The notes below the pieces were generated by a model. The model searched no databases and was not told where the DNA came from. It saw only the letters and a list, made by a program, of their open reading frames with translations. Positions 2,511 through 53,725 of a DNA stretch of 53,725 nt are shown one piece after another (position 1 is the first letter of the stretch; the number at the start of each line of letters is the position of its first letter). The translations under genes were made by a program, and so were the position numbers. The DNA comes from Neptunomonas sp. (GTDB lineage Bacteria; Pseudomonadota; Gammaproteobacteria; Pseudomonadales; Balneatricaceae). Location: the NCBI RefSeq assembly GCF_016744175.1, contig NZ_JADGEV010000001.1, forward strand, positions 149,973-203,697. The letters run 5' to 3'.

Positions 2511-3730
2511 TGAAGCCTGCTCTGTTATTACTATGTCATCGAATTCCGTATCCTCCTAATAAAGGAGATAAAATTCGCGCTTATCATTTGTTAAAATTTT
2601 TAGTAGAGCACTATGATGTCCATTTGGGCTCCTTTATTGATGACCCATTGGATTGGAAATACGTATCAGATGTGGATGCTATGTGTAAGAGCAGTCACTT
2701 TATAAAGCTTGACCCTTTGCAGGCAAAAATCAAGTGTCTTAAAGGCTTTTTTACAGGTGAAGCACTATCAGTGCCTTATTATAATAGCAAACCGCTGCAG
2801 CAATGGATTAACTCTACGGTTAAGACCCATGGAATCAAAAAAGCTATGGTTGTTTCATCTGTAATGGCTCAGTTTTTGGCAGATCCGGGTATTAAATTAG
2901 ACAACAAAATCATTGATCTAGTTGATATCGACTCTGATAAATGGAAGCAGTACTCCACTATGAAAACGTGGCCTATGAGTTGGGTTTATCAGCGTGAAGC
3001 TAGAACGCTGCTGGAATATGAAAGAGATGCTGTGAATGATTTCGACACAAGTTTTTTCGTCTCGTCTGCTGAGGCTGAGATGTTTAAGAAAAAAATTGTA
3101 CATTCGCAAAATAAGGTTGGCTTTTACAATAATGGTGTAGATAGCGAATATTTTTCAGTGTCTGGTGATCTGCCTAATCCTTACTCTATAAATACAAGGC
3201 CGGTTGTTTTCACCGGTGCAATGGACTACTGGCCAAATATAGATGCTGTAAAATGGTTTGTAGCAGAGGTGTTTCCTGCTTTGTATCATCATAATCCTGC
3301 ATTAGTGTTTTATATTGTAGGAAGCAATCCAAGCGATGAAGTACGCCAGCTTGCACAGATTGATGGTGTTGTTGTCACAGGGCGCGTTGAAGATATCAGG
3401 CCTTATATTGAATATTCATATCTTTGTGTTGCTCCTATGAGAGTTGCTAGAGGGATTCAAAACAAAGTGTTGGAAGCTATGGCTATGGAAAAAGCAGTTA
3501 TAGTGAGCACAATGGGGTTGGAGGGCATTAGTGCTAAGAATGAAGTAGAGGTTTTAGTTGCCGATACTGCTGATGAGTATATACAGGCAATAAATGAAAT
3601 AACGGAATCTAGAGCAGTAAGTCTCGGAAGGGCGGCTAGAGTACGAGTGAAAACAGATTTTAACTGGTCTGAAAGTCTACCTGTAGTAATGGAACACTTG
3701 GAAAATAACCTGCAGCAGAGGCTGTCATGA
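2510..3730 (+). CDS. GT4-type sugar transferase, XrtA-associated (stp1 family)
   Basis: This 406-aa cytoplasmic glycosyltransferase probably adds a sugar to the lipid-linked repeat. The N-terminus LLLLCHRIPYPPNKGDKIRA is the signature of the PEP-CTERM/EpsH1-associated sugar transferase 1 family (TIGR03087). The donor-binding half is GT-B like, with VVFTGAMDYWPNIDAVKWF, FYIVGSNPSDEVRQL and a terminal VLEAMAMEKAVIVSTMGLEG loop carrying the GT4 acidic residue (E of LEAMA). It starts in a TAATG overlap with the FemAB gene and ends in an ATGA overlap with xrtA, so the three genes form one translationally coupled unit. Confidence 0.9.
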   Translation: MKPALLLLCHRIPYPPNKGDKIRAYHLLKFLVEHYDVHLGSFIDDPLDWKYVSDVDAMCKSSHFIKLDPLQAKIKCLKGFFTGEALSVPYYNSKPLQQWINSTVKTHGIKKAMVVSSVMAQFLADPGIKLDNKIIDLVDIDSDKWKQYSTMKTWPMSWVYQREARTLLEYERDAVNDFDTSFFVSSAEAEMFKKKIVHSQNKVGFYNNGVDSEYFSVSGDLPNPYSINTRPVVFTGAMDYWPNIDAVKWFVAEVFPALYHHNPALVFYIVGSNPSDEVRQLAQIDGVVVTGRVEDIRPYIEYSYLCVAPMRVARGIQNKVLEAMAMEKAVIVSTMGLEGISAKNEVEVLVADTADEYIQAINEITESRAVSLGRAARVRVKTDFNWSESLPVVMEHLENNLQQRLS

Positions 3731-5295
3731 CTAGTGCGCTAAAGGATAATATGGAAGTCGCAAAACAGCAGACATCGTGGCGTTATTTTCTGCCTTCAGT
3801 AATAGCCTATCTTGTTTTATTAACTATTTTTTTTTATGGCACCGTCGAATCTATGGTTTCTATATGGATTCGGTCTGAAACTTTCACCCATGCTTTCTTA
3901 ATCTTACCCATTTCTATCTGGCTTGTTTGGGAGAAAAAAAACTACTTACGGGGATTGTCTCCTAAGCCTTCCCTAATAGGAATGTTGTCCCTCGTTGGTG
4001 CAGGTTTTTTGTGGCTATTAGGTCATTTGGTCGATGCTACTGTTGTACAACAACTAGCATGGGTTACTGCATTCATTGGTGGAGTTTGGGCTATCCTAGG
4101 CAATCGTATTGCTTGGGCTATAGCATTTCCATTGGCTTTTTTGGTCTTCCTTATTCCGTTTGGTGAAGATTTAGTACCGATGATGATGGAGTTTACTGCT
4201 GACTTCACTATAGGTTTGGTCAGGTTGTCGGGTGTACCTGTTTATCGAGAAGGGCTGTTTTTTTCTTTGCCTACAGGTCATTGGTCTGTTGTTGAAGCTT
4301 GTAGTGGCATTAGATATTTAATTGCTTCTCTTACCTTGGGTTGTTTGTATGCATACCTTACTTATAGCAGCTTAAAAAAACGCCTATTATTTATAGCAGT
4401 TTCAATAGTTGTACCTATTATAGCTAATGGCTTAAGAGCTTACATGATTGTAATGCTTGGCCATGTTAGTGATATGACTATTGCCACAGGTGTAGATCAT
4501 TTGGTTTATGGCTGGTTGTTTTTCGGCATTATAATATTTTTGATGATTTTAGCGGGTTCTAGGTTTCGTGATGATGCTGATTCCTTTAAAGGTGTTGAGT
4601 CACCAGCTACAGAGAGCAATACTAATTATAGTTTCCCAAAAACCCTGCAAGCATTTTTCCTTTCTCTTTGTCTAATTGGTATTTGGCCAGCACTTGCACA
4701 TATCATTGATGACAATTCATACCGAACGAATGATGCCACGGATAAGCTGTCTTTTGGTGAGATAAATGGGTGGGAATCACTAGATCAGGTTCGATGGGAC
4801 TGGGCTCCTAATAATCAAGCAGCAGAAAAAACGGAGAAATTTTTCGAAAAAGGAAAGGTGCAAATCGGTGTCTACTTACAGTACTTATTTGTCAGAGAAA
4901 AAGGAGTAGAGCTGATTAGCTCGCAAAATACATTACTAAGTTCTGATCAGAGTGATTGGCGAATAGTCGGTAATAATAAGAGATCAATACAAATTGGCGA
5001 AGATAATCTAGAAATTAATGAAACGTTGCTAAAGGCAACAGACACCCAGTTACTTGTATGGTCTTGGTATCGTATTGGTGAGCATTACACCTCAAATAGA
5101 TATATTGCTAAGCTTCTCGAGGGATTTAATCGATTAACATTTGCTCGACAGGATGAGGGTGAAGTTATTTTTGCTTTACCCTTTAATGAAAGTGAAAGCA
5201 TTGATAAACGATCGGTTGTATTAGAGAATTTTGTACAGAAGATGCTGCCTCAAATGGAAAAAGCGGTTGAAAGAAAAGTAGCTAAAACAAAATGA
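3727..5295 (+). CDS. xrtA: Exosortase A with fused C-terminal EpsI domain
   Basis: This is the membrane transpeptidase-like protease that recognises and processes PEP-CTERM tails. The 522-aa protein has about eight hydrophobic segments in residues 20-280. They hold the catalytic triad: C192 in VEACSGIRY, R237 in NGLRAYMIV and H258 in VDHLVYGW. After a linker (about 285-305), a further hydrophobic segment leads into an EpsI-type domain (about 315-510) containing GEINGWESL, QIGVYLQYLF and LVWSWYRIG. It overlaps both neighbours by 4 bases (ATGA). A PEP-CTERM substrate lies at 40847-41743 in the same window. Members carrying the EpsI fusion are common in the XrtA class. Confidence 0.97.
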   Translation: MTSALKDNMEVAKQQTSWRYFLPSVIAYLVLLTIFFYGTVESMVSIWIRSETFTHAFLILPISIWLVWEKKNYLRGLSPKPSLIGMLSLVGAGFLWLLGHLVDATVVQQLAWVTAFIGGVWAILGNRIAWAIAFPLAFLVFLIPFGEDLVPMMMEFTADFTIGLVRLSGVPVYREGLFFSLPTGHWSVVEACSGIRYLIASLTLGCLYAYLTYSSLKKRLLFIAVSIVVPIIANGLRAYMIVMLGHVSDMTIATGVDHLVYGWLFFGIIIFLMILAGSRFRDDADSFKGVESPATESNTNYSFPKTLQAFFLSLCLIGIWPALAHIIDDNSYRTNDATDKLSFGEINGWESLDQVRWDWAPNNQAAEKTEKFFEKGKVQIGVYLQYLFVREKGVELISSQNTLLSSDQSDWRIVGNNKRSIQIGEDNLEINETLLKATDTQLLVWSWYRIGEHYTSNRYIAKLLEGFNRLTFARQDEGEVIFALPFNESESIDKRSVVLENFVQKMLPQMEKAVERKVAKTK

Positions 5296-40605: not shown

Positions 40606-40622
40606 TGTCAGGTTTTTTAACG
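40606..40622 (+). promoter_or_regulatory. Possible weaker copy of the T-tract activator site
   Basis: TGTCAGGTTTTTTAACG resembles the two strong elements at 40692 and 53011 (TGTC, G, T tract, AC). It lies 86 bases upstream of the 40692 copy. It may be a second PrsR site, but the match is partial. Confidence 0.35.
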
Positions 40623-40691
40623 TTTATTTGTTTAGTTATATCAATGAGTTAAAAGCGCTGGTGGTTTTAAGTAGAGATTCAATGATTGGTC

Positions 40692-40708
40692 TGTCGGTTT
40701 TTTTTACA
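40692..40708 (+). promoter_or_regulatory. Putative PrsR upstream activator site
   Basis: TGTCGGTTTTTTTTACA differs at one base from the element at 53011-53027. It begins 102 bases before the -12 GC of the sigma54 promoter at 40781. That distance suits a sigma54 enhancer, and the matching site has almost the same distance (104). Binding by PrsR is inferred. Confidence 0.6.
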
Positions 40709-40780
40709 CGGAAGAAGAGTAAATAAAAGGGAATGAAATATAAGTCTTTTAAATCATATGCTTAGGTTTGTTTTTAATGT

Positions 40781-40796
40781 TGGCATATGAATTGCT
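40781..40796 (+). promoter_or_regulatory. Sigma54 -24/-12 promoter of the PEP-CTERM gene
   Basis: TGGCAT-ATGAA-TTGCT fits the TGGCAC-N5-TTGCW consensus, with exactly 10 bases between GG and GC. Transcription would begin near 40807, giving a leader of about 40 bases to ATG 40847. PrsR, a sigma54 activator, is encoded at 49213. Confidence 0.85.
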
Positions 40797-40846
40797 TTAA
40801 ACTTACTACTAGAAATAAAGTACCTTACAGCTCAAGGGTGAACGAA

Positions 40847-41743
40847 ATGAAAAAATTATTATTAGCAGCAACATTGATCGCAGCTAGTGGAAGTGTAACG
40901 GCTCAGCAGTTTTATTTAGATAATGGCGTTGATTTTGGTGGTGTTGGCTTAGCTGATGATAAAGTATGCGCTACGTGTACTTCATTGAAAGATCAGTTTG
41001 GTTTTACCTACAACTCTGTATCAACAATCACTGATGCAGACATGAATGGTATTACTACAGGTGATGCTATTACTACTAATGCTGGTTATGACGGTTCTAC
41101 TGGTACATTCTTCAATGGTGGTCTGGGTACTAACTATGTAAATGGTTTTCTTCCTGCTGAAACTATTGGTGACTCAGACAACGGTTATGGTCCTGCCGGA
41201 GATTGGTTCATTACGTTCGGAATTAAAGACTGGGCTGGTACTGTTACAGTCGATGGTTCTGGAAATGTATTCCCAACATATGGTACTGGACTTCTAGAGT
41301 TTTATGTAACTACTGATAGCGGTGTGACATATAACAACTTTATGGATGTTAACATGACTACCGGCTTTGTTACTGGTACTGGTAGCTTGTTAAGCGGAAC
41401 TGTAGATTTCACAGCAGTTGATGCAGGTTTCAATAACTTGTTCAATGTTGGTGGCGCTGGTGCTTGTGGTGGTTTAAATGGTTTCTTTGATATTTGGTCT
41501 GCTTGTGGTCCTGCCGGTCTTGATGAGTTAGATATTGATTTCACTGGTCACTTCGATAGTGATGTGGATTTGAGTTCTTTTGCTCCTGGTCCTGTAGCTG
41601 ATACATTTGTTGTTTCGACTGATCATGATGGAAGCGGACGTTTCGCTGTTCCTGAGCCAGGTACGTTGTCTTTGTTAGGTTTGAGTCTTCTTGGTTTAGG
41701 TGGATTCAGAATGCGCAAAACATCGAAAAAACTAGCTAGCTAA
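40847..41743 (+). CDS. PEP-CTERM sorting-signal protein (exosortase A substrate)
   Basis: This 298-aa exported protein has a signal peptide at residues 1-20 (MKKLLLAATLIAASGSVTAQ). The body is glycine-, threonine- and aspartate-rich with predicted beta structure and six cysteines (CATC, GACGG and SACGP). The C-terminus is a full PEP-CTERM signal: VPEPGTLSLLGL, a leucine/glycine transmembrane stretch and RMRKTSKK. XrtA should cleave and anchor or release it, probably as a matrix protein. AAGGGTG precedes ATG 40847. The sigma54 promoter at 40781 places transcription start after the alternative upstream start at 40787, which confirms this choice. A strong terminator follows. Confidence 0.95.
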   Translation: MKKLLLAATLIAASGSVTAQQFYLDNGVDFGGVGLADDKVCATCTSLKDQFGFTYNSVSTITDADMNGITTGDAITTNAGYDGSTGTFFNGGLGTNYVNGFLPAETIGDSDNGYGPAGDWFITFGIKDWAGTVTVDGSGNVFPTYGTGLLEFYVTTDSGVTYNNFMDVNMTTGFVTGTGSLLSGTVDFTAVDAGFNNLFNVGGAGACGGLNGFFDIWSACGPAGLDELDIDFTGHFDSDVDLSSFAPGPVADTFVVSTDHDGSGRFAVPEPGTLSLLGLSLLGLGGFRMRKTSKKLAS

Positions 41744-41764
41744 TATTTTAGCTGGACTAAAAGA

Positions 41765-41787
41765 GGGAGCCATTGGCTCCCTTTTTT
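41765..41787 (+). terminator. Rho-independent terminator after the PEP-CTERM gene
   Basis: GGGAGCC and GGCTCCC form a 7-bp GC-rich stem with a 3-base loop, followed directly by TTTTTT. It sits 22 bases after the PEP-CTERM stop, so that gene is monocistronic. Confidence 0.92.
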
Positions 41788-41811
41788 ATTGCTGTTTGTA
41801 ATGAAAAGTAA

Positions 41812-42666
41812 TTAGTTGTCGTTAAGAATTTGTTTAATCCTTCGGTACATGATTTTTTGTATAGGGTTTTTGTTTCCAAAAGGGCGCCAGCTTTTTTTCA
41901 GTTTGTTTAGGTAGGCGTCAAAGTGTAATCCGTGTGGTGCGCATACAATATCCCCTCTATTTAACAAAAGCTTGAGAACCTGTGTGCAGGCAACGCCTGC
42001 GCTTATTTCAATGCCCATCACGGTAGAGGGTACCTTTTCATGCAAGAAGTTGACTGAGGACCTGTCTACTAAATACTTTCGCTGCAAAACAGTGGGTGAT
42101 ACGCCCATGATGAAATAAATAATTTGATCTTCAAAGCTTAGGCCTTCCAATGCGAAATACTCTTCAAAGCTCATTTTGCCTGGCAGAAAAATTAAAAAGG
42201 CTGTCCCCATACCCATTGGGGCTGCGGTAATGGCGGGAATACCCAATTCATAACAACGTGCAAAAACTTTGCGTCGTATTTCTAAGGCGAAAATATCAAG
42301 GCTGTCGACATATATATCTACGTCCTTTAGAAACTCATCGAGGTTTTGTTCGGTTATGCCGTTCTCAAAGAGTTTGATATCTAGCTCAGGGTTAATGTCT
42401 GAAATAGTTTCTTTCATAACCGCTGCTTTAGGTCGCCCTATGGAAGAAAGGGTCGCTCCATATTGGCGGTTGAAGTTTGGGTAGTCAAAATCATCAAGAT
42501 CAGCAATATTGAAATTACCAATGCCTAGTCGTGTTAGAGTGATTAGGTGACTACCACCGACACCACCTAGTCCTCCAATGGCTATACGGCTATTTTGAAT
42601 AGTTGTTTGTTCAGCTTCTGTCACCCAGCCTATATTTCTAGAAAATGCTTGGGAGTAATTAAACAT
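41812..42666 (-). CDS. ThiF/E1-like adenylyltransferase family protein
   Basis: This 284-aa Rossmann-fold E1-like enzyme has the ATP-binding loop IAIGGLGGVGGSHL (glycines 31-38), ADLDDFDYPNFNRQYG carrying the D..D..N..RQ residues, SIGRPKA and DIYVDSLDIFALEIRRKV. It lacks the CxxC zinc pairs of MoeB/ThiF, and I see no obvious catalytic cysteine loop of the sulfur-carrier type. It may adenylate a peptide or small-molecule carboxylate. A ubiquitin-like partner is not visible. AGGAG lies 7 bases before the ATG. It follows prsT on the same strand but is separated by long inverted repeats. Confidence 0.82.
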   Translation of the reverse strand: MFNYSQAFSRNIGWVTEAEQTTIQNSRIAIGGLGGVGGSHLITLTRLGIGNFNIADLDDFDYPNFNRQYGATLSSIGRPKAAVMKETISDINPELDIKLFENGITEQNLDEFLKDVDIYVDSLDIFALEIRRKVFARCYELGIPAITAAPMGMGTAFLIFLPGKMSFEEYFALEGLSFEDQIIYFIMGVSPTVLQRKYLVDRSSVNFLHEKVPSTVMGIEISAGVACTQVLKLLLNRGDIVCAPHGLHFDAYLNKLKKSWRPFGNKNPIQKIMYRRIKQILNDN

Positions 42667-42695
42667 TGTAAGCTCCTGTCAGTGGTCCATGTGCA

Positions 42696-42719
42696 AATGA
42701 AGTCCGTATTAGCTTCATT
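42696..42719. repeat. Inverted repeat AATGAAG-N10-CTTCATT
   Basis: A perfect 7-bp inverted repeat lies 29 bases upstream of the ThiF-like gene and directly beside the larger palindrome at 42721. It could be an operator or part of a terminator. Confidence 0.45.
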
Positions 42720-42720
42720 G

Positions 42721-42776
42721 TGTATAGATAAAGGTAATCATATTCTAAATTTAGAATAGATTACCTTTTGTATACA
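42721..42776. repeat. 56-base nearly perfect palindrome between prsT and the ThiF-like gene
   Basis: The arms are nested. TGTATA (42721-42726) pairs with TATACA (42771-42776), AAAGGTAATC (42730-42739) with GATTACCTTT (42759-42768), and the centre TATTCTAAATTTAGAATA (42741-42758) is perfectly self-complementary. Only short mismatches interrupt it. It could terminate prsT transcription or be a remnant of a small mobile element. Confidence 0.75.
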
Positions 42777-42818
42777 TGCTCGTATTGAAGGAGGAATAGA
42801 TACTATTTGATAAAGTAT

Positions 42819-45431
42819 TTATTTTAACTGCTTGATTGTTTCTAAAGTATCTTTGATCTCGGGGCTATTTGGTGCAAGAAGTAATGCTTTTTCTGCGTAT
42901 GCTTGTGCTTGTTGTAGGTCTGTATCTTTCAATAACCATGCTAGATTATTTAAAATGACAGGATTGTTATTTTCAATATCAACAGACTTCTTGTAAGCAG
43001 AGATGGCGGCTTGGTTTTCATTGTTTTTAAGGTGCAGACCACCTAGGAGGGCAAGCAAGTTAGCGTTGTTGGGTTGTGACTCTAAGGCCCTTGTTATAAA
43101 TTGAATGGCCCCGCTGTCATCACCTAGCTTCCAGTATGTGTGTAGAATTTTTTTAGCAATAGTGTCATTCGAATTTTGTGAAAATACATCAAGATAAAGC
43201 TTTAGAGATGTATTGAAATCACCTTCTAGGGAGCTTATGTCTGCTCGAAGGATTTTGTTGTAAATATTGTTGGCTGCGATGCTATCAGCAGTGTTTAGGT
43301 ATTCGTTCGCTTTTACTAGGTCTCGTTCCTGAATTGATATTTCTACAAGAGCAAGAAGGGCGGGTAAGAATTGAGCATTTCTTTCGATTGATACGTGCAA
43401 TGCATTTTTGGCTTCAGCATTTTTATTGAGAGCCTGAAGCGCAGTGTATTTAAGGTAGTGAGGAAGTGAGGAATTGTCCACAAGGCTTATCGATGTGTTG
43501 TACTCCTCGAGTGCTCTATCATATTCTCTTAGCATCATTCTCGCGTTACCCAAAGCAATAAAAACCAGTGGGTTTTTATTGTCTTTGAAGTTAGAGAGCT
43601 CCCTAATAGCAAGAGAGGGCTTACCTTTTTTGAGTAGAAGCTTGGCAAGCGTGATTCCCGCTCTTTCATTGTCTTTAGTAATATCTTTAGCTTTTATCAG
43701 TAGAGATTCTGCCCGATCCAATTTCTGGGTATTTATAAGATGTTCGGCATATTCGATCATTAGTTCAGAATTGTTCGGATTCGATTTAAGAGCAGTTTCA
43801 AAGAGGTTATTGGCTTTTTGTGCTTCTCCTTTTCTAATAGCTATTATGGCTAGCTGTCGTAAGGCAGGTGCGTAGCCGGGTTTAGCTTCGATAGATTCAT
43901 TGAATAATCTTTCGGCTTCGGGGAAGTTGCCGTCTATTAAATGAATGGTACCAGATAGACTTTTAAGCTGAGCAGTTTCTTGTTGCTCTTTGGGTAGCGC
44001 GTCGATTATTTTAAAGGCATTTTGGAAGTTTTCTGCTTTCAAGTTGGCTTGAACTATGGCCAGTTGAGCTGCAGAGTATTGTTTGCTTGTTTTAGGAATT
44101 TTATTTAATTCTGCTATCGCGCCATCGTAATTGTTTTGAGCAATCAGACTTCGTGCTAACCCTATTAGCAAAGCGCTTTCGTCAGGTTTCTGCTCTAGTG
44201 CCTTGGCATAGTAGCGGCTGCTTTCTTCAGGGTTGCCATTAATTAGTGCAGCATTAGCCATTAATGCAAGAGAGGGAAGATCCGGATTTTCATTTGCCAA
44301 AACAGATTTTAAAGTATCAAGTGCGCGGTCAGGGTCGTTCTTTAAAACTTGAACGAGTCCAAGTAGGCGTCTCGATTGAATATGATTAGGAAACTTGTTA
44401 GAAAATTCATTTAGCTGCCGCTCTGCCTGCTCAAAATTTTTCTCTTCAGCATTGACTGTCCCTAAAAGAAGTAATATGCCTGGGAAGTTGTCGCTGTAGC
44501 CAATGATTTGTTCACCAAAAGCTTTAGCTGCGGTGTAGTTTTTATCATGCAGTGCTATAAATGCTTGTGTGTAAATGAGCTTAACATCTTTGGCTATCAT
44601 GTTTTTATAATAGCCTTTATTGAGTGCGCTCATTTCGTCTTTTGCTTTATCCATATCTCCTGACGTTATGTATGTGAATGCAAGGTTCCTGCTCACAATA
44701 AATTGTAAGTAATTCTTTTTATTCGTGATGTGTTTTTTTGCTTGTAGTAATGAATCAATAGATTCGTTTGTCTTTTTCTGGATGCTATCAATATCAGCCT
44801 TCGTGATCCAGGCACGTATATTGTCGCTATTTTTATCGATGGCTTCGCTAATCAGAGTAGATGCTTTATCAAAATCTTTACTGGCCATCGCAATTCTAGC
44901 AAGACCTTGGCGAGCTCTGCTTGAATCGGGGTTTAGGCTAAGGGTGTTCGAAAAATGTTTGTTTGCAGTCGAAATATCTCCTAGCTGTAGGTATGCCTCG
45001 CCTAGAAAAATATTCTTTTCAGCCTGTAAGGCTGGTGTATCTGTATCAACGGGTTGGAACTTTGTTATTACTTCTTCAGAGCTACCTTGAAGTAAAAGAG
45101 ACTCCCCCAGCAGTGGAAGGATAGCGTCTTTATTGTTGCTTGATTCAAGCGCCTTTTTGAATTCAATTGATGCTGTACGAGAGTTGCCAGTAGTTAGAAA
45201 AATTTTGCCTAAAAGTAAGCGGGCTTCACTGTAGCTGGAATTCTGTTGAAGAGCGTTCTTTAATTCGATTTCACTGGTTTTAAAGTCTTGTGCATCAAAG
45301 CTTTTTTGAGCATTTTTGAGGTGTTGCTCAGGTGTTGTTGAGGAGCCGTTACAGCCTTGAATGACAAGAAGTGCTGCTAAACTAGTAGTTGCGATGAGTG
45401 CTTTGGTATGGGCTTTAAGGCGGCTTGGCAT
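42819..45431 (-). CDS. prsT: PEP-CTERM system TPR-repeat lipoprotein PrsT
   Basis: This 870-aa lipoprotein has a signal peptide with lipidation cysteine C27 (LLVIQGCNGS; glutamine at -2 is slightly atypical). Some twenty TPR repeats fill residues 35-865, such as PEQHLKNAQKSFDAQDFKTS, ARLLLGKIFLTTGNSRTASI and PVILNNLAWLLKDTDLQQAQ. The N-terminus and length fit the PEP-CTERM TPR lipoprotein family (TIGR02917), which in XrtA genomes is found with prsK and prsR, as here. It probably scaffolds export or assembly at the envelope. AGGAAGAG precedes the ATG, and TATAAT about 40 bases further upstream may be its -10 box. Confidence 0.93.
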   Translation of the reverse strand: MPSRLKAHTKALIATTSLAALLVIQGCNGSSTTPEQHLKNAQKSFDAQDFKTSEIELKNALQQNSSYSEARLLLGKIFLTTGNSRTASIEFKKALESSNNKDAILPLLGESLLLQGSSEEVITKFQPVDTDTPALQAEKNIFLGEAYLQLGDISTANKHFSNTLSLNPDSSRARQGLARIAMASKDFDKASTLISEAIDKNSDNIRAWITKADIDSIQKKTNESIDSLLQAKKHITNKKNYLQFIVSRNLAFTYITSGDMDKAKDEMSALNKGYYKNMIAKDVKLIYTQAFIALHDKNYTAAKAFGEQIIGYSDNFPGILLLLGTVNAEEKNFEQAERQLNEFSNKFPNHIQSRRLLGLVQVLKNDPDRALDTLKSVLANENPDLPSLALMANAALINGNPEESSRYYAKALEQKPDESALLIGLARSLIAQNNYDGAIAELNKIPKTSKQYSAAQLAIVQANLKAENFQNAFKIIDALPKEQQETAQLKSLSGTIHLIDGNFPEAERLFNESIEAKPGYAPALRQLAIIAIRKGEAQKANNLFETALKSNPNNSELMIEYAEHLINTQKLDRAESLLIKAKDITKDNERAGITLAKLLLKKGKPSLAIRELSNFKDNKNPLVFIALGNARMMLREYDRALEEYNTSISLVDNSSLPHYLKYTALQALNKNAEAKNALHVSIERNAQFLPALLALVEISIQERDLVKANEYLNTADSIAANNIYNKILRADISSLEGDFNTSLKLYLDVFSQNSNDTIAKKILHTYWKLGDDSGAIQFITRALESQPNNANLLALLGGLHLKNNENQAAISAYKKSVDIENNNPVILNNLAWLLKDTDLQQAQAYAEKALLLAPNSPEIKDTLETIKQLK

Positions 45432-45647
45432 TTGTAACGCTCTTCCTTGTGAACTTTAAGGGTATTATATTTAACATTAGTATGTAGCTAAAACAATATC
45501 GTTAGTTATTTTTGACATTATTCTTGCTGCTTTGTGAGGTGAGGGCTAATCTTTTAATAAACAATCATGCTGTAATTCTACCTGGGGCAATCGGGCTAGA
45601 GCTATCGGGATGTGCTTAACATAACACTAGTATGGATGGTCATAGGC

Positions 45648-46397
45648 ATGGTAGGTACTTTAGCAGAAAATTTTCAGCGATATTTTACAGTTGATTTTGC
45701 CTTTGATGAGCATGTGAAGAGTGAAGTGTTTCGGACACGATTTAATGTTTATTGCAAAGAATTTGAATATGAATCTGTGGAGAACTTCCCGGATGAGCAA
45801 GAGTTTGATGATTATGATCAGTTTTCTTTGCATTGTGTTATTAGGCATAAAGAGTCGGGTGTTGCTGCGGGGTGTGTAAGATTGGTTCCTGCAGAAATTG
45901 AAAAACTGTCTTCTCTCCTGCCATTTGAGAAATACTGTTTAGATAGTATAGATCATGAGTTTGTTGATGGGTTGTCTCTTGATAGGAATACTGTTTGTGA
46001 AATTTCGCGACTGGCAGTAGATAGTTCTTTTAGACGACGACCCAATGAGGGTGTTGACCGTTTTGGTAATGCTCGAGAACTAACATTTGGTGATGAGGAA
46101 CGACGTGTTTTTCCATTAATTGCAGTATCTGCTTTTCTAGCATCAACATCATTAACTGTATTGACGAAAAGGACAAATGTCTTCGCAATGATGGAACCAT
46201 TCCTGCCTAGGCTTTTGAAGCGATCTGGTATCGTATTTCATCGTGCTGGCCGTGATGTGGATTATCATGGTGTAAGAGCTCCTTACTTCATTACGACGCA
46301 GTCAGCATTAGATAATATGAAGCCAGAATTGAAAGAGCTGTATGAAGCTATTCATACTAAGATTTGTGCCGAATATAGATCTTTTTTTCCAGAGTAG
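45648..46397 (+). CDS. PEP-CTERM/exosortase system-associated acyltransferase (long-chain N-acyl amino acid synthase type)
   Basis: This 249-aa GNAT-fold protein is related to acyl-homoserine-lactone synthases. It has VFRTRFNVYCKEFEYE, HCVIRHKESGVAAGCVRLVP, and VCEISRLAVDSSFRRR, where the E-x-SRLAV segment is the signature. It matches the exosortase-associated acyltransferase family (TIGR03694), members of which have been shown to make long-chain N-acyl amino acids. It probably takes an acyl chain from a carrier protein and acylates an amino acid. ATG 45648 follows GGATGG; in-frame starts at 45612 and 45636 are less likely. It is divergent from prsT. Confidence 0.88.
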   Translation: MVGTLAENFQRYFTVDFAFDEHVKSEVFRTRFNVYCKEFEYESVENFPDEQEFDDYDQFSLHCVIRHKESGVAAGCVRLVPAEIEKLSSLLPFEKYCLDSIDHEFVDGLSLDRNTVCEISRLAVDSSFRRRPNEGVDRFGNARELTFGDEERRVFPLIAVSAFLASTSLTVLTKRTNVFAMMEPFLPRLLKRSGIVFHRAGRDVDYHGVRAPYFITTQSALDNMKPELKELYEAIHTKICAEYRSFFPE

Positions 46398-46532
46398 ATT
46401 GTTTGCATCTCATTCATTTGTCGTGCCAGTAATGCTTAGTCGTATGTGCTAGCTTTTTGAGACATGCTTGTCTGCTCGAATAAATCCCTAAATTCAGTAT
46501 GGTTTTAACGAAAAGAATGTTGGGGTAATGAA

Positions 46533-47435
46533 TTAGGCGGGAGAGTTAAGGGGTGTTAGAGATATAAGCGAGCTGAAGAGTAAAAATTGACAGTTTACGA
46601 TGCCGTAGCACTCGTAAGTTTGTAGTGCAGAGGTGCTCTTCTCGCTTTGGAATGGCTTAACTAATATGTGGAGGCTGTCGTTACTTTTTAAGTACGATAG
46701 ACGATTTCTATCAATACTTATTTTGTGTGACGTATAAACCATAGGGTTTCGTTTAAAGTCTAGTTTTTCTTTGATAGCTTTCTCTAATAAAGCGCACGAA
46801 ATGAGCGAGCAGGGAAAAATCTCTGGAAAATTAGCTTTCCCTTCGATTTCATCAAAAAAAATCGATTGTTCAACAAGAGAGCCTGATAAAAAGTTTTTCG
46901 CATTACTGGTGTTCATAAATTTTCTTTTAATGAAAAACCCCGTGTCCTCTAAAAACTCTCTGTCAGAAGAGCTTTGTAGTTTACTTAAGTCGGGTAAATT
47001 GAGAGAGGGTAGAAATAAAGGGCGAGTAGATTCTTTTTTATACCCCATCATGCAAAGCTTTCCGGAAGATTTGATGCTGACTCTATTGCTAAGCGTGGGA
47101 TTGTTGGTGTCGTTAGTGAATAAGCTTTTGTTAATTTTTATTTCAACTTCTTGTTCGGGCTTTACAGGGTTGGCAAATGAGAACTGGTAGTTGCTGTATT
47201 GCAGGTTGTGTTGGGAAATTAAGATTTCTTCTTGGTTTTTGGATCGATGATCCCTAATAGCTCCTTCAATGAACTCTTCTAATTGAAAGCCTAATGCGAT
47301 TGGCCCGTTGAAAGGGTTTTTGAAGATTTGCTCCCACTTTTTTTTGTCATGGAAAAGGTTGAAATCATCTGTGGAATTTCGGGCAACATCTATATGTAAC
47401 AAGCTAAAAGTATTGGCTTTTGTATGTGTGGGCAT
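46533..47435 (-). CDS. Unassigned protein, possibly MaoC-like hotdog fold
   Basis: This 300-aa cytoplasmic protein has no signal peptide. The N-terminal stretch VARNSTDDFNLFHDKKKWEQ followed by NPFNGPIALGFQLEEFIEGA recalls the hydratase helix of MaoC-type hotdog proteins (D..PxH spacing with G-P-I). SNYQFSFANPVKPEQEVEIK resembles the first hotdog beta strands. The C-terminal half may be a second, degenerate unit. If correct, it would bind or modify acyl thioesters, which fits its position next to the N-acyl amino acid synthase. The fold call is my inference. AAGGA precedes the ATG. Confidence 0.55.
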   Translation of the reverse strand: MPTHTKANTFSLLHIDVARNSTDDFNLFHDKKKWEQIFKNPFNGPIALGFQLEEFIEGAIRDHRSKNQEEILISQHNLQYSNYQFSFANPVKPEQEVEIKINKSLFTNDTNNPTLSNRVSIKSSGKLCMMGYKKESTRPLFLPSLNLPDLSKLQSSSDREFLEDTGFFIKRKFMNTSNAKNFLSGSLVEQSIFFDEIEGKANFPEIFPCSLISCALLEKAIKEKLDFKRNPMVYTSHKISIDRNRLSYLKSNDSLHILVKPFQSEKSTSALQTYECYGIVNCQFLLFSSLISLTPLNSPA

Positions 47436-47674
47436 GCTGCTGTCCTTGGAGTCAGGCCTAGTTAAATTGGATGATATAGTAAGAAATGTCTTATCAAAAC
47501 AGGAAAAAAGTCGGGTTCTGATGTATATTTACTATTCAGCTGTAGGTCATTTCAGGATGGTATCCTAGCTCTTAATCGTAATATAAAATCTATAGCGTTT
47601 ATATAAAATGCTACCTTTTATTACAAAATGAAAAATGAAGTTTACGTTTACAATTGTTAAGTAGGGAATCGTTC

Positions 47675-49165
47675 ATGGATAAAGTCAATGCTCGTTATGA
47701 TAGATCTGATTCAGCTCGTGAGAGTGTCGAATCTAGAGCATCTGCTCAGCGGGTAAAGTTGCGCTTCTGTCATGGAAAATTTCGTGTTTTTGGGCATTAT
47801 GTTCATGCGCAGTTTTTGTTGTTGGCCTTTTTTGAGTTTGCACTTCTAGGCTTCTTGAGTTACTCGGTCCATTTTTCTTTTCTAAAGGAAGGTGAAAGGC
47901 TTTTGGTAAGTGATTTTTCAAGTGTTTTATTGCCTGTGGTACTGGTGTCGTTAAACTTATGTGCAATGGGATTATACGATACACGGCAAAGGCAAGGCTT
48001 GGTAGGTGTTCTTTCTCGCCTTGTGGTGGCTATTGTTATTGGTATCTCGTTGACCGTCGTTATCAATTATTTCTTTCCATATACCTATGGCGGTTATGCC
48101 GTTCTACCTGTAACTGCATTGGTTTCACTGGCTTCCTTGATGCTAGTTAGGGCTCTGTTTTATTCTTTCATTGATGGGAAGGTTTTAAGGCGTCGTATAC
48201 TTGTATTAGGAACAGGAAACAGGGCTTCCTATATAGATAAATTGCGCCGCAAAGCTGACATGAGAGGGGTTGATTTGGTCGGGTTTATACAGCTAAACCC
48301 TGCCGACGAAAGCTTTGTTTCAAAAGAAAGAGTCGTTTCTTCAGGCGGCTGCATCCGTAATTTCGCAATGTTACGTGATGTTGATGAAATTGTTATAGCG
48401 CTAGACGACCGCCGTGTTAAGTTTCCGGTGAAGGAGTTGTTAGATTGTCGCATGAGCGGTATTGATGTAATTGATATGCTTGATTTCTTTGAACGAGAAA
48501 GAGGGCTGATTCAATTAGATCTATTGCAACCTGGATGGCTTATTTTTGCTAAAGGCTTTTCTCCTGATGTATTTCGTGCATTTAAGAAGCGTTCAGTTGA
48601 TATGTTAGTGAGTCTGGGGCTTATAGTTGTTTTCTCTCCTTTTATGCTTCTCACAGCTTTGGCTATATTTATAGAGAGTCGGGGGGCTGGTGATATATTG
48701 TATCGTCAGAAGCGAGTGGGGCGTAATGGTCATGATTTCGATGTTATAAAATTTCGTAGTATGAGAACTGATGCTGAAGCAGATGGCAAAGCTCGCTGGG
48801 CTACTGAGAATGATACCCGCGTAACAGTGGTCGGGAACTTTATTCGAAAGTATAGACTTGATGAGTTGCCGCAGCTTTGGAACGTTTTATCGGGTGATAT
48901 GAGTTTGGTAGGACCTAGGCCTGAAAGACCTGAGTTTGTATCTAGGTTAAATCATTTGAATTCATTGTATGAAGAAAGGCACCGACTGAGCCCGGGAGTT
49001 ACAGGTTGGGCGCAGTTATGCTATCCCTATGGTGCTTCGGACGCAGATTCTATCCAAAAACTTCAGTATGATCTTTATTACATCAAAAACCATAGTATCT
49101 TTTTGGATATGTATATACTTATTCAAACGGTCGAGGTTGTGTTGTTTAAGAAAGGCTCTCGATAG
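47675..49165 (+). CDS. Undecaprenyl-phosphate sugar phosphotransferase (priming glycosyltransferase, PEP-CTERM-associated EpsB type)
   Basis: This 496-aa enzyme attaches the first sugar-1-phosphate to undecaprenyl phosphate and so starts the repeat unit. Residues 35-165 hold four to five transmembrane segments, followed by a Rossmann-like domain (RRRILVLGTGNRASYID). A fifth hydrophobic segment (SVDMLVSLGLIVVFSPFMLL) leads into the bacterial sugar transferase domain with DVIKFRSMRTDAE, KYRLDELPQLWNVLSGDMSL and VGPRPERPEF. The end TGWAQLCYPYGASDADSIQK and YDLYYIKNHS fits the PEP-CTERM-associated subfamily (TIGR03013). AGGGA lies 9 bases before ATG 47675. It is a lone plus-strand gene between minus-strand genes. 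Confidence 0.94.
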   Translation: MDKVNARYDRSDSARESVESRASAQRVKLRFCHGKFRVFGHYVHAQFLLLAFFEFALLGFLSYSVHFSFLKEGERLLVSDFSSVLLPVVLVSLNLCAMGLYDTRQRQGLVGVLSRLVVAIVIGISLTVVINYFFPYTYGGYAVLPVTALVSLASLMLVRALFYSFIDGKVLRRRILVLGTGNRASYIDKLRRKADMRGVDLVGFIQLNPADESFVSKERVVSSGGCIRNFAMLRDVDEIVIALDDRRVKFPVKELLDCRMSGIDVIDMLDFFERERGLIQLDLLQPGWLIFAKGFSPDVFRAFKKRSVDMLVSLGLIVVFSPFMLLTALAIFIESRGAGDILYRQKRVGRNGHDFDVIKFRSMRTDAEADGKARWATENDTRVTVVGNFIRKYRLDELPQLWNVLSGDMSLVGPRPERPEFVSRLNHLNSLYEERHRLSPGVTGWAQLCYPYGASDADSIQKLQYDLYYIKNHSIFLDMYILIQTVEVVLFKKGSR

Positions 49166-49177
49166 TTGAGTTCTTTA

Positions 49178-49199
49178 CAGAGAAGCGTGGGCTTCTCTG
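49178..49199. terminator. Bidirectional hairpin between the priming transferase and prsR
   Basis: CAGAGAAGC and GCTTCTCTG form a perfect 9-bp stem around GTGG, located 12 bases after one stop and 13 bases after the other. It has no long T tract. Confidence 0.7.
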
Positions 49200-49212
49200 C
49201 ATGCCTGAAACG

Positions 49213-50577
49213 TTATTCTGCTTTTGGGTGAAGGTTGTACTTGTCGAGCATGCTATAAAGCGTTGGTCGGGTTATACCTAGGGCTTTGGCAGTATCCGAT
49301 ATACTAAAGTCAGCGTGGTGTAGTGCTCTTTTTATTGCCCTTTTTTCTGCTTCATCTCTTATTTGCTTCAAGTTGAGAGGGGCATAATCAGTTTCTTCTA
49401 AGCATAATTCAAGATCTTCCGTTGTTATAAGTGAGCCGTCTGCCATTATGACAGCTCTCTTTATTTTACTTTCAATCTCTCTGACATTTCCTGGCCAATT
49501 ATAAGTTTCGATAGCTGCAATAGCTTCTGAATCGAACCCTCGGATGGTTTTTCCGTACTCTTTGTTTAGTCGTGTTAAAAACGACTTTGCGAGCAAAAGG
49601 GCATCTCCTTCTCTTTCTTTCAATGAAGGTATTTGTACGGTTATCTCACTTATTCTGTAATACAAATCTTCTCTGAAACGTCCTTCTTTAATGTGCGTAC
49701 CTAAATCTTGGTGTGTGGCACAAACAATGCGGACATCGATGGGGATTTCTACTCTGCCGCCGACTCGTTCAATTACACGTTCTTGGAAAAAACGTAGAAG
49801 TTTAGCTTGAAGCTCAAAGGGAAGGTCGCCAATTTCATCAAGGAAAAGAGTTCCGCCGTTAGCTAATTCAATTTTCCCGATCGTCTGTTTGGTTGCTCCA
49901 GTGAAGGCTCCCTTTTCATGGCCGAATAACTCACTTTCAAGCAGGCTGTCTGGGATGGCTGCGCAATTAATGGCGACTATTTTTTCATTGGCTCTGGGGC
50001 TAAGTTTATGAATGGCCTGAGCGAACAGTTCTTTGCCTGTTCCGCTTGCGCCTAAGAGCAATGTCGTAATGTCAGAGGGGGCAACTTTTTCAATAGTTCT
50101 ACAGGCTTTTAGCATGGGAGGGCTAGCTGCAATGATGCCGTCAAGAGGCATGCTATGATGGCTTTGCTGTAATTGCTTGTTTTCTACTTCAAGTTCATAA
50201 ACTCTGTATGCTCGCTCGACAATTAGTGTAAGAATTTCAGGGTCGGCAGGCTTTTGGTAGAAATCGTATGCGCCTAGAGCAATAGCTTTGACTGCATTTG
50301 TTCTGTCGTTATCGCCTGTGACCACGATGACTTTGCATTCTGGTGTTAGAGAGAGTATCTCTTTCAGTGTTGCAAAGCCTTCAGTTACGCCGCCAGGATC
50401 CGGTGGCAGACCTAAATCAAGTAATACAACACCGGGCTGAAGGCGTCTCAGTTGTGCAATTGCATCTGTTCTTGTTCCACATATAGTTACTTCAAAGCCA
50501 TCAAAGCACCATCGTAATTGGCTTTGTAAGCCCTCATCATCCTCAACGATAAGAAGGTTCTTTTTTGATCCATTCAT
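49213..50577 (-). CDS. prsR: PEP-CTERM system sigma54-dependent response regulator PrsR
   Basis: This 454-aa NtrC-family activator has a receiver domain in residues 5-125 with phospho-acceptor D54 in [10 protein letters not shown]. An AAA+ domain spans 145-380, with Walker A GASGTGKE including K182, the sigma54 contact GAFTGA (223-228) and [15 protein letters not shown] Fis-type helix-turn-helix lies at 410-450 ([20 protein letters not shown]). It matches the PEP-CTERM response regulator family (TIGR02915). It is encoded 29 bases after prsK, with AAGGA before the ATG. Its likely targets are the sigma54 promoters at 40781 and 53102. Confidence 0.96.
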
Positions 50578-50606
50578 ATATTGTTCCTTAGTTGTTCTTA
50601 TAGTGC

Positions 50607-52673
50607 TTAGGATGTGGATTTATTGTGTAGGGGGAGGGTTATAATGAAGGTAGTACCGACCCCCAGTGTGCTTTGGACTTGAATATTGCCGCCAAGGGAG
50701 CGTACCACTTCACGGCTTTCAAACGCTCCAACCCCCATTCCCGTTAATCCTTTAGTAGAATCGAAAGGTTTGAATAGTCTTTGCTGAATGAAATTATCAT
50801 CCATGCCGCATCCAGTATCTATTATCTCAATAATAGCATTAGATGTATCGCAGTTTAACTGTACATCTACATGGCCATCTTCGTTGGTTGCTTCTAAGGC
50901 ATTAAGTACAATATGACCAAAAACATTCGTTAGTTGCTCGTTATCAGCAAATACCGTTGCTTGGATATCGGTTTCTTTAAAAGATGGCTGTGGGTGACGC
51001 ATGCTGAAACGATGTGTGACATTATGGAGGAGCCGCTTTAAGTCAATAGGTACCGGTGTTGTGCCGCGCATTCCGTTACGCATTTGCTCCATTAATCGTG
51101 TCATTCTTGTTACCGAATTGCGCACAGTGAGTATCACATCGTCTACAAACTCAGGCTTGTGTTTATGCTTTTCTGCGTTTGAAACAATGAGCGACTGTTG
51201 GGCTAGAATGTTTTTGAGGTCATGAACTATGTAGGCAGAGAGACGATTAAAGGCTTCAAATTGCTGTGCTTGTATAAGTGCTTGATTTGCTTGATATTGT
51301 GCGAGAAGACTCGCGGCCTGTTTTCCTGCTATTTTGAGTAAGTCTCTATCTTCCCAGTTGATATTTTTTTGGATGTCAGAGTGCTTTACAAGCACGAACC
51401 CATAAGCTTCAGCATTAAAGAGAAGGGGGACTACTAGCCATGCGTTAGGTGTGGCTACAAGTTGCTCTGGTAGCGTTAAATCATCATAAATACCAGGTGT
51501 GAGTCGGTACTCATCTAAATCAATTACCCATTCAGTTCGTTCAAAAAATGTACTAATGCTTTGTAGGTCATTAGGGTTGATCTCTAGCGCAGCCATGTCC
51601 CAATTCGTAAGTAGTTGATAGGTAGAATTGCTATCCCTTCCCCAAATTACAGCGCCTTTACTTTGCACAAGAGAGCCTATAGCGGCGCAGATTCGTTCAG
51701 GGGTTTCGTGCTCGTGTTCTGATAGCTGATGAGTGAATTTTTGCCATTCCTCACGATAATCGTATTTGTAGTTGAAAAAGTGCTTGCTTAATAGCACACG
51801 AGCACTTGATCTGATTTTGTCAGAAAATAAAAGAATGAATAGAAGCAGCCCGGCACCAAAAAGGAATGTTATTTGTAAGACGGATCCCCACGTTCCTCCA
51901 TAATATCGAATGAAATAGCCAGCTGCGGACATGAGTACAAGATAAATGCCTGCACCAGTCAATGTGGCTGTATGGAATGCTACTTGGCGTGAGATTTGTA
52001 AATTTAAAGACCAATTGGGGTTTCTTGTAAGAGAAATGATGATAAGAGGTGCGGCAATTCCGTTGATGATTCCGCGAGCATCCCAGAGTTGTTTGTCTAA
52101 GTTTTTAAAAAGAAGAGCGTCTGCATATATAAAAAAGTCATAGGCAAATATGCTGCCTAGCCCAAGGCATAGGTGTTTCAGAAACCAATGTTGTTCCTTT
52201 GAAGAGTTTCGGTATATTTGTTCTATTAGTAATAGTCCTGATATAGCTAAAAACATCCATGCGATTAAGGATATGTCTTTAAAGTGCGTGTTTAGCTCTA
52301 GGGTTGTGCTGTTAGTTGCGAATATCATTCCGCTTAGTGCTGCGACTACAGATAGTAGAATGAGCGGTGAGTTAGCAAGTTTATTCATAAATGGGTTTGA
52401 TGAGCTTGTATTGTCAGGGGTAATTACTTTCAGTAAGAAAAAACACCATGCGACATTTCGAATTATTTCTGACGCTTGTATGACTTGAGCTGGTATTGAG
52501 TATGTAGAGTAAGATATTGTTATTATTATTGCCCAGGTAGATGTTGCGAGCACTGCAATTTTTATAGGTGTGATGGATTTATTGATTTTGTTAGACGTTA
52601 ATAAAATAACACCTAATATTATGTAAGCAATAAACGCAAATAAGTGGCTGTAAAAACCGACATCCTCGAACAT
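50607..52673 (-). CDS. prsK: PEP-CTERM system membrane histidine kinase PrsK
   Basis: This 688-aa sensor kinase has seven to nine transmembrane helices in residues 8-290, a GAF-like domain (about 315-460), H484 in AYIVHDLKNILAQQSLIVSN as the phospho-acceptor, and an HATPase domain with NALEATNEDGHV, IIDTGCGMDD and GMGVGAFESREVVRSLGG. This matches the PEP-CTERM kinase family (TIGR02916). ATG 52673 places the first helix right at the N-terminus, as is usual, and has GAGAG upstream. The ATG at 52733 would add 20 polar residues and has no ribosome site. It lies directly upstream of prsR in one operon. The signal sensed is unknown. Confidence 0.94.
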   Translation of the reverse strand: MFEDVGFYSHLFAFIAYIILGVILLTSNKINKSITPIKIAVLATSTWAIIITISYSTYSIPAQVIQASEIIRNVAWCFFLLKVITPDNTSSSNPFMNKLANSPLILLSVVAALSGMIFATNSTTLELNTHFKDISLIAWMFLAISGLLLIEQIYRNSSKEQHWFLKHLCLGLGSIFAYDFFIYADALLFKNLDKQLWDARGIINGIAAPLIIISLTRNPNWSLNLQISRQVAFHTATLTGAGIYLVLMSAAGYFIRYYGGTWGSVLQITFLFGAGLLLFILLFSDKIRSSARVLLSKHFFNYKYDYREEWQKFTHQLSEHEHETPERICAAIGSLVQSKGAVIWGRDSNSTYQLLTNWDMAALEINPNDLQSISTFFERTEWVIDLDEYRLTPGIYDDLTLPEQLVATPNAWLVVPLLFNAEAYGFVLVKHSDIQKNINWEDRDLLKIAGKQAASLLAQYQANQALIQAQQFEAFNRLSAYIVHDLKNILAQQSLIVSNAEKHKHKPEFVDDVILTVRNSVTRMTRLMEQMRNGMRGTTPVPIDLKRLLHNVTHRFSMRHPQPSFKETDIQATVFADNEQLTNVFGHIVLNALEATNEDGHVDVQLNCDTSNAIIEIIDTGCGMDDNFIQQRLFKPFDSTKGLTGMGVGAFESREVVRSLGGNIQVQSTLGVGTTFIITLPLHNKSTS

Positions 52674-53010
52674 TGTAGTCGCTCTCGTTGAAGTTACATT
52701 AGGCACTTGTTGATGGGGTGATTGTGCTGTCATTACAAAAGAACAAGTCTAGTCAAAGGTGCGGGATAGTGAAAGGTGTCTTTATTAATCTCCTATAAAT
52801 CTGCGGTAAGCATAATAACTTTAAAGTATATTTATTCGATATTTTAAAAAGATATTGTATCGGGGAAATACAAAGAATCAGTTAATGCTATAATAATTTT
52901 TATTGATGTAGGAAGAGTGGTCTGTCTTGTGACTTTGGTTTGTATTCTCAGATGCAGTTGAGAGTCAGCAAGATGTAACACATTTATGTCTTCAGTTAAC
53001 GATGCTTTGG

Positions 53011-53027
53011 TGTCAGTTTTTTTTACA
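53011..53027 (+). promoter_or_regulatory. Putative PrsR upstream activator site
   Basis: TGTCAGTTTTTTTTACA matches the element at 40692-40708 in 16 of 17 bases. It begins 104 bases before the -12 GC of the sigma54 promoter, almost the same distance as at the PEP-CTERM gene. Confidence 0.6.
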
Positions 53028-53101
53028 GGTCAGTATGTGTAGTGCAAGATCTGTATTAATAATTACTGAAAACTGCCCGTAAATCAGTCGAAGTATGCTG
53101 T

Positions 53102-53117
53102 TGGTGTGTTTATTGCA
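53102..53117 (+). promoter_or_regulatory. Sigma54 -24/-12 promoter of the Tat-signal gene
   Basis: TGGTGT-GTTTA-TTGCA keeps GG and GC with 10 bases between them, matching the sigma54 consensus with CA replaced by TG in the -24 box. Transcription would start near 53128, giving a leader of about 56 bases. Confidence 0.75.
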
Positions 53118-53183: not shown

Positions 53184-53725
53184 ATGAAGGATAAAATGGA
53201 TCATCCACAAGATCATGAATTAGCTGAAAATCCGAGTGATGGCTCTCACCAGAAGTTAGAAGGTGTTGATGCATCGCGTCGTCGTTTATTTGGGGCCGGG
53301 ATTGCGGTGCCTGTAATACTTACGATGTCGAGTCGAACGGCTTGGGGTGGGGGGTTGTGTGGTCCTTCAGCATTTAATTCAATGACTTTTTCATCGCATG
53401 CACCTCAATCGAGTATAGATGAATGTTCTGCAGCTGCCGGAAAAAGCCCTCTTTTTTGGAAGCAAAACCCAAGTCTGTGGGATACTTATTTGCCGGATGG
53501 TGCAACACCAGGCTCAGTTGCACCTTTCTCTAATATGATGACTATGTCACAAGTACTGGAAGGGTCAACAACAAGCATCGAGGCGCATGGGATTGCAGCT
53601 TTACTTAATGCATCTTCTGGTGAGAATTTATTTGGGAAACCGAATTCGGCGGCTGCAATTCAGCTTGTTGAGCACGTATTCCCGGCCTTTATTGGTGGAA
53701 TGTCAGTAGAGCTTCCTGGTACTAC
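53184..53725 (+). CDS. Tat-signal exported protein of unknown function (3' end outside window)
   Basis: Only the first 180 codons are visible and the frame is open to the window edge. A twin-arginine signal spans residues 31-55: ASRRRLFGAGIAVPVILTMS followed by SRTAWGGG. The mature part begins CGPSAFNSMTFSSHAPQSS and contains two cysteines early (C59, C81) and an alanine-rich helical stretch (SIEAHGIAALLNASSGENLF). I do not recognise the family. Tat export suggests folding or cofactor loading in the cytoplasm. The sigma54 promoter and activator element upstream resemble those of the PEP-CTERM gene, so it is probably PrsR-controlled. TAGG lies 8 bases before the ATG. Confidence 0.8.
   Translation, partial: MKDKMDHPQDHELAENPSDGSHQKLEGVDASRRRLFGAGIAVPVILTMSSRTAWGGGLCGPSAFNSMTFSSHAPQSSIDECSAAAGKSPLFWKQNPSLWDTYLPDGATPGSVAPFSNMMTMSQVLEGSTTSIEAHGIAALLNASSGENLFGKPNSAAAIQLVEHVFPAFIGGMSVELPGT

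Follow-up and report, generated by a model that had tools for sequence, protein, structure and literature searches.

The stretch of DNA considered here, referred to as the window, comprises 53,725 nucleotides of a Neptunomonas sp. genome (contig NZ_JADGEV010000001.1, positions 149,973 to 203,697). It is an exosortase A / exopolysaccharide locus, with genes for exosortase A (XrtA), a FemAB-like protein, an amidotransferase, a glycosyltransferase, PrsT, an acyltransferase, EpsB_2, the sigma54-dependent response regulator PrsR and the histidine kinase PrsK. Two nearly identical 17-bp boxes in this window, each upstream of a −24/−12 sigma54 promoter, are the subject of this report. One precedes a gene for a PEP-CTERM protein, and the other precedes an operon whose first gene encodes a protein with a start resembling a twin-arginine translocation (Tat) signal. 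The box element itself is not new, since it was predicted in 2006 as motif 1 of Haft et al. (PMC1569441). Judging by sequence and by comparison of genomes, both 17-mers are very probably PrsR enhancer sites that act with the adjacent sigma54 promoters, and they would thus cover PEP-CTERM genes as well as the Tat-like operon.

The two boxes differ at a single base, and their starts lie 102 bp (40692) and 104 bp (53011) from the −12 GC of the respective promoters, just as an earlier note on this DNA had described. That note called the spacing identical, which holds to within 2 bp but not strictly. The window holds two exact matches to TGTCNGTTTTTTTTACA, whereas dinucleotide shuffling (100 replicates) gave a mean of 0.00 (0/100 with a match). 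The note's placement of PrsR in the same window stands, as both PrsR and PrsK score above the cut-offs of their models (Table 1). The weaker third copy that it reported at 40606 is present and is the third-best site of the window (15.1 bits, the next scoring 9.6) for a weight matrix trained on 42 sites from the relatives' loci and the Neptunomonas genome itself, Tat-like sites left out. Its mismatch count, however, is at chance level: three matches occur in the window at a tolerance of 3 mismatches versus 1.8 expected, and 30 of 100 shuffles yield three or more. Second boxes up to 300 bp upstream are a minority feature more generally, found at 4 of 32 loci, while a control stretch has one at 1 of 32 (this comparison covers those of the 52 sites with enough flank, the other 20 being too short).

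Table 1. Predicted sites and genes of the window that bear on the PrsR box.
Feature	Position	Strand	Sequence or model match	Remarks
PrsR box (Haft motif 1) of PEP-CTERM gene	40692..40708	+	TGTCGGTTTTTTTTACA	
−24/−12 sigma54 promoter, PEP-CTERM gene	40782..40795	+	TGGCATATGAATTGCT	GG 40782-40783, GC 40794-40795
PrsR box, operon of Tat-like signal protein	53011..53027	+	TGTCAGTTTTTTTTACA	
−24/−12 sigma54 promoter, Tat-like operon	53103..53116	+	TGGTGTGTTTATTGCA	GG 53103-53104, GC 53115-53116
Weak second box, tentative	40606..40622	+	TGTCAGGTTTTTTAACG	3 mismatches; 86 bp upstream of the 40692 box
PEP-CTERM protein gene	40847..41743	+	TIGR02595 23.4 bits, cut-off 16	PEP-CTERM segment ~41648-41716
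First gene of Tat-like operon	53184..53725	+		Frame enters a run of N starting at the window end
prsR, sigma54-dependent response regulator	49213..50577	-	TIGR02915 694 bits, cut-off 502.6	
prsK, histidine kinase	50607..52733	-	TIGR02916 744.8 bits, cut-off 300	Divergent from the 53184 gene
prsT, TPR protein	42819..45431	-	TIGR02917 437.7 bits, cut-off 312.2	
Exosortase A (XrtA) with EpsI-type C-terminus	3727..5295	+	TIGR03109 352.1 bits, cut-off 208	EpsI-type C-terminus: TIGR02914 82.3 bits, cut-off 42.8

The regulon is not local, as the earlier note had supposed, but genome-wide. Across the 4.2 Mb and 97 contigs of this genome, the box pattern has 13 matches with up to two mismatches (3 exact, 4 with one and 6 with two), compared to 8 for the reversed control. 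All seven matches with at most one mismatch precede either PEP-CTERM genes (on contigs C7, C18, C33, C57 and, twice, C72) or the 53184 gene, which is the outcome that the note's proposed genome-wide check had looked for. Among the six two-mismatch boxes, the one on C95 precedes a PEP-CTERM gene, and the other five are on contigs without a match to TIGR02595. That model has 11 matches in the genome, 10 of them above cut-off (one match above cut-off also occurs in 2 of 14 control genomes). A box with no more than one mismatch stands before five of the 10 PEP-CTERM genes above cut-off, and the C95 gene brings the number with at most two mismatches to 6 of 10. The two one-mismatch boxes on C72 (23548 and 23716) stand before one and the same PEP-CTERM gene, 168 bp or 16 turns of 10.5 bp apart, with 238 bp from the nearer box to the promoter GC.

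Comparative evidence comes from two samples, one of 193 relatives and one of 274 genomes across the class; each includes the Neptunomonas genome itself, and the overlap consists of this genome and three others. The pattern sought was a box followed by a promoter at a start-to-GC distance of 79-109 bp, with a related pattern used for the class. In the relatives, it gave 52 matches in 21 genomes (reversed pattern, 0). PrsR scores above cut-off in 54 of the 193, including all 21 genomes with box plus promoter (own genome included; Fisher p 8e-14), and box plus promoter occurs in 0 of the 139 PrsR-negative relatives. In the class sample, 40 genomes together had 60 matches, compared to 1 for the reversed control; PrsR is above cut-off in 73 of the 274 and covers 36 of these 40 (p 3e-20). 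All such p values are overstated, as the genomes are related and not independent. The proposal in the earlier note that the 17-mer is the PrsR enhancer fits these co-occurrence counts, as well as the activator suggested in 2006.

The box-to-promoter distances, measured from the box start to the −12 G and unselected within 79-109 bp, fall on one face of the DNA. For the relatives, the 52 distances are distributed as 1 at 82, 32 at 90-95 and 19 at 102-106, with 0 elsewhere. For the class, 55 matches from PrsR-positive genomes (own genome left out) gave 6 at 81-84, 32 at 91-95, 16 at 102-107 and 1 at 99, so that 54 of 55 lie on the same comb. Periodicity as strong as observed was reached by 0 of 5002 (relatives) and 0 of 5000 (class) uniform draws. 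The window's own distances of 102 and 104 represent the third step of this comb (~82, 93, 104). Best-fit periods are 11.6 (relatives) and 11.15 (class), with 10.5-11 nearly as good; the exact period is not fixed, because the distance range is too short. A hand-compiled set of 41 distances at Tat-like loci extends the comb to ~114 and ~124. The promoter was chosen by hand in this set where several lay downstream, and the phasing claim therefore rests on the unselected relatives and class sets. Activation from one helix face is a known feature of NtrC-type activators.

Genes downstream of the 52 sites in relatives were sorted by simple script rules. PEP-CTERM-type genes make up 33 of them (27 PEP, 4 variants and 2 cut by the locus end), 9 belong to the Tat-like family (one start being hidden by N), and 10 are other targets, among them four repeat proteins with the look of beta-rolls and some small membrane proteins, the rest being unclear.

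The four repeat proteins, beta-rolls by eye, are all from one Neptunomonas genome (G007; L088, L105, L113 and L114). In two genomes (L086 in G056 and L104 in G019), the box is followed by small membrane proteins that form similar pairs. Frames after boxes in two further genomes (L170 in G447 and L177 in G227) end, by eye, like GGDEF diguanylate cyclases, which would tie PrsR to cyclic di-GMP in some genomes. Related frames after the boxes of another two (L160 in G285 and L161 in G405) resemble, again by eye, an NtrC/Fis-type regulator, and a regulatory cascade is possible there.

The second target, the 53184 gene, belongs to a family of its own. Neither Pfam nor NCBIfam has a family match to its readable part, no model among those tried names the protein, and a comparison of the family with solved structures found no significant match (best E 0.31). 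The candidate reading of this gene as another PEP-CTERM gene was rejected, as PEP-CTERM models match neither its readable part nor its intact homologs. Family members are mostly 185-280 aa long. Their N-termini share a signal with an Arg pair; two Cys are invariant, and Ser and Trp residues are invariant or >90% conserved. Across 37 aligned members, one Arg of the pair is invariant and its neighbour >90% conserved, and the motif C-x-x-S-x-x-x-S includes one Ser at >90% and another that is invariant. The start of the protein can be read, weakly, as a Tat signal.

A scan of named genomes found four family loci, all of them Neptunomonas (N. japonica, N. qingdaonensis, N. antarctica and N. marina). 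Model A1, built from 14 of the genomes found, detects the family in 26 of the 193 relatives. Matches inside giant frames (G064 and G080) and a second match in G154 were left out; 24 genomes were counted as genuine, and 24 of 24 are PrsR-positive. Model A3 finds the family in 27 of the 274 class genomes; besides the own genome, 20 loci are clear and six are weak. Four of the weak loci (L150-L153) were dropped for having no kinase nearby, while the other two are very short Tat-like frames (L154 in G374, 87 codons; L155 in G292, 59 codons) that lie close to a distant HprK-like match. A PrsR box with a promoter is present at L154.

The intact operon, as seen in N. japonica, encodes the Tat-like protein, a 97-aa PqqD-like protein, an HprK-related kinase A (367.8 bits, cut-off 200) and a PF14907 nucleotidyltransferase. 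With a home-made kinase model, trained on four sequences of which three come from loci among the 50 searched, the kinase is found within ~1.5 kb at 46 of 50 loci (L154 and L155, with weak kinase matches, are among the 46) and is absent at L150-L153. The nucleotidyltransferase was detected by model in Neptunomonas only. Of 22 PqqD-like members, 20 have a match to TIGR04353 ("HPr-rel-A system PqqD family") at E 0.1 and 8 a match to Pfam PqqD at that threshold; the two members without a TIGR04353 match are from Neptunomonas, and one of these (L032) matches TIGR04248 instead. HprK_rel_A itself was detected in 27 of the 274 class genomes and in 0 of 14 control genomes. The class genomes that have it are PrsR-positive in 26 of 27 cases (p 5e-16), the exception being G199, a 75% complete genome with a locus that lacks the box.

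Conservation of the box at this operon was measured with the core TGTC-N7-TTTACA, at most one mismatch allowed, within 600 bp upstream of the Tat-like gene; the core was fixed after sites had been inspected. The counts include the own locus and omit L154, L155 and L068, where N hides the start and the core lies 635 bases before the match. Among the relatives, 22 of 23 loci have the core, and in the class 16 of 20 do; the reversed core gives 1/23 and 1/20, and the 600 bp downstream give 1/23 and 0/20. Exact cores occur at 14 of 23 and 10 of 20, with 0 in all controls. At L043, the one relative locus without the core, the box is poorer and a promoter stands at 92. Six kinase-positive class genomes have no match to the Tat model at the kinase. 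Five of them show an exact core in what was taken as the upstream stretch, with a scoring promoter in three; the sixth (G449) starts at a contig end, and no core was seen. Tat-like frames do stand before the kinase in G206, G282, G325 and G403. The core is also retained in genomes that have prsR on a different contig (G119, G116 and G154) or ~300 kb away (G160), and linkage to prsR therefore does not explain the box at the operon.

A number of observations weigh against PrsR as the general explanation of these boxes. In the Neptunomonas genome, two of the 10 PEP-CTERM genes (C9 and C63) have no recognisable box, and those on C70 and C41 have boxes with 3 and 4 mismatches only. The strict patterns match just 21 of 54 PrsR-positive relatives and 36 of 73 PrsR-positive class genomes, leaving 33 and 37 without a match. 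Conversely, four of the 40 class genomes with box plus promoter lack PrsR (G323, G372, G405 and G265); the matches in G323 and G372 lie inside long open frames, and the G405 genome is 77% complete. Four class loci of the Tat-like gene have no core nearby (L130, L147, L148 and, in PrsR-negative G199, L132), and at L145 a box is present without a scoring promoter. The Tat signal model TIGR01409 matches only 4 of the 37 family members at E 0.1, which makes the signal weak by model. Finally, the Aquincola tertiaricarbonis mutant did not regain flocs when it was given prsK or prsK-prsR on a plasmid (PMC9850573).

Co-occurrence by itself is also compatible with another enhancer-binding protein that has the same distribution as PrsR, and several NtrC-type regulators do exist in the relatives (seen as further PrsR-model matches below cut-off). 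Such a different activator, merely accompanying PrsR, is nonetheless very unlikely: Haft et al. arrived at PrsR from the phylogenetic profile of the motif (PMC1569441), dependence on PrsK/PrsR has been reported for Zoogloea (PMC9012009), and box plus promoter does not occur in any of the 139 PrsR-negative relatives. These last genomes, which presumably have sigma54 and integration host factor (IHF), also speak against a box that is simply an A/T-rich bend or IHF-type site helping any sigma54 promoter. Bending proteins are often used at sigma54 promoters, and a T-tract does form the core of the box in the window; in other genomes, however, the T-tract gives way to mixed bases, and what is shared are the ends TGTC and TTTACA, so that we regard a generic bend as extremely improbable. 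There remains the 53011 box, which lies in the intergenic region common to prsK and the divergent operon, and which might be there only through this adjacency, by autoregulation of prsK or by linkage. This is very improbable, as genomes with the operon off the prsR contig or ~300 kb away retain the core, as do many class genomes, and as the spacing of the box is in phase with the Tat-like gene's promoter.

With PrsR as the activator, PrsK would phosphorylate PrsR, and phospho-PrsR, probably dimeric, would bind the box; the DNA would loop, and the AAA+ domain of PrsR would open the sigma54 polymerase at the −24/−12 promoter. A box held on a fixed helix face relative to the promoter would account for spacings in steps of ~11 bp. 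Binding, looping and sigma54 activation are proposed because of the family to which PrsR belongs and because of the 2006 study. PrsR of Neptunomonas would in this way switch on at least 6 of the 10 PEP-CTERM genes, plus the operon of the Tat-like protein, PqqD-like protein, HprK-related kinase A and nucleotidyltransferase. The one-face geometry makes PrsR activation directly testable with spacing mutants.

What the operon does is more speculative. PrsR might control proteins of the matrix of two kinds. One would be the PEP-CTERM proteins, which exosortase sorts. The other, tentatively, would be a Tat-exported kind that is guided by the PqqD-like protein to the HprK-like kinase and nucleotidyltransferase, phosphorylated or phospho-glycosylated on conserved Ser residues in the cytoplasm (a step proposed by analogy with lasso-peptide clusters), and exported folded into the exopolysaccharide. 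Candidate residues for the modification are the two Ser of C-x-x-S-x-x-x-S. Tat export would suit such a protein because it is modified in the cytoplasm; a role in cytoplasmic phospho-tailoring before export to the matrix is, however, a guess. A conserved operon outside the PEP-CTERM group would link the HprK-related kinase A / PqqD system, which is uncharacterised, with the making of matrix in biofilms and flocs. The orphan kinase would gain a regulator, a probable substrate and a context for study.

Other genes of the window deserve brief mention. The product of 40847..41743 is weakly like PepA (floc_PepA 42.9 bits, below the cut-off of 80). A single frame at 33221-35020 contains exosortase-A-associated hydrolase 2 followed by hydrolase 1 (TIGR03101 and TIGR03100, both above cut-off), representing either a fusion or a missed frame boundary. 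The 300-aa frame at 46533-47435, between the acyltransferase and EpsB_2, has no NCBIfam family match at E 0.001. The XrtA-system amidotransferase at 6487-8388 (TIGR03108) is also matched by the lasso-peptide cyclase model NF033535 (E 8.7e-82, below cut-off) and shares its locus with the PqqD, HprK and nucleotidyltransferase genes.

The closest known system for the boxes is that of Haft et al. (PMC1569441), who described a 17-nt motif 1 that ends in TTTACA and is sometimes repeated, followed by a spacer (mean 62.8, standard deviation 10.6, range 32-92 nt) and a −24/−12 motif 2. These motifs precede 99 of 167 proteobacterial PEP-CTERM genes, PrsR was proposed as the activator, and a few sites before other genes were allowed for. 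Both window sites are likewise 17 nt long and end in TTTACA, with spacers of ~72-74 nt when motif 2 is counted from the T of TGG; PrsR, PrsK and PrsT are all present above cut-off, as in that system. The 40692 site precedes a PEP-CTERM gene above the TIGR02595 cut-off, whereas the 53011 site does not. Where the 2006 study gives a spread of spacers, the present data show steps of ~11 bp and one other target family. No statement of one-face spacing for PrsR, no account of the Tat-like/HprK operon as a PrsR target and no mention of "HprK-related kinase" were found in the open-access literature searched, most subscription journals lying outside it.

Experimental parallels exist for the PEP-CTERM branch. 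For example, pepA of A. tertiaricarbonis, beside prsT, depends on RpoN1 and has a mapped −24/−12 promoter with a predicted enhancer upstream (PMC9850573), an arrangement like that of the 40847 gene. The organism is a different one, the letters TGTC are absent from the main text of that study, and a Tat-like operon is not met in the portion seen. For Zoogloea, PEP-CTERM expression and floc formation are reported to depend on PrsK/PrsR (PMC9012009).

Two systems resemble the Tat-like operon. One is the HPr-rel-A system of NCBIfam (TIGR04352 kinase and TIGR04353 PqqD chaperone), which the kinase and most PqqD-like members match; the differences are that the two Neptunomonas PqqD-like members tested fall outside TIGR04353 and that the Tat-like protein is unnamed by its models. 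The other is the lasso peptide cluster. For paeninodin and pseudomycoidin, an HPr-kinase homolog phosphorylates the C-terminal Ser of the peptide, a nucleotidyltransferase adds hexoses in one case, and a PqqD/RRE-type B1 protein binds the leader (PMC8498205). Identity with a lasso cluster was rejected, as a short precursor, a cyclase and a B2 protease are all missing from the operon in N. japonica. The same trio of a PqqD/RRE-type protein, an HPr-kinase homolog and a nucleotidyltransferase stands together here, but with a presumed substrate that is, in most members, a protein of ~200-260 aa with a Tat-like signal in place of a short precursor peptide.

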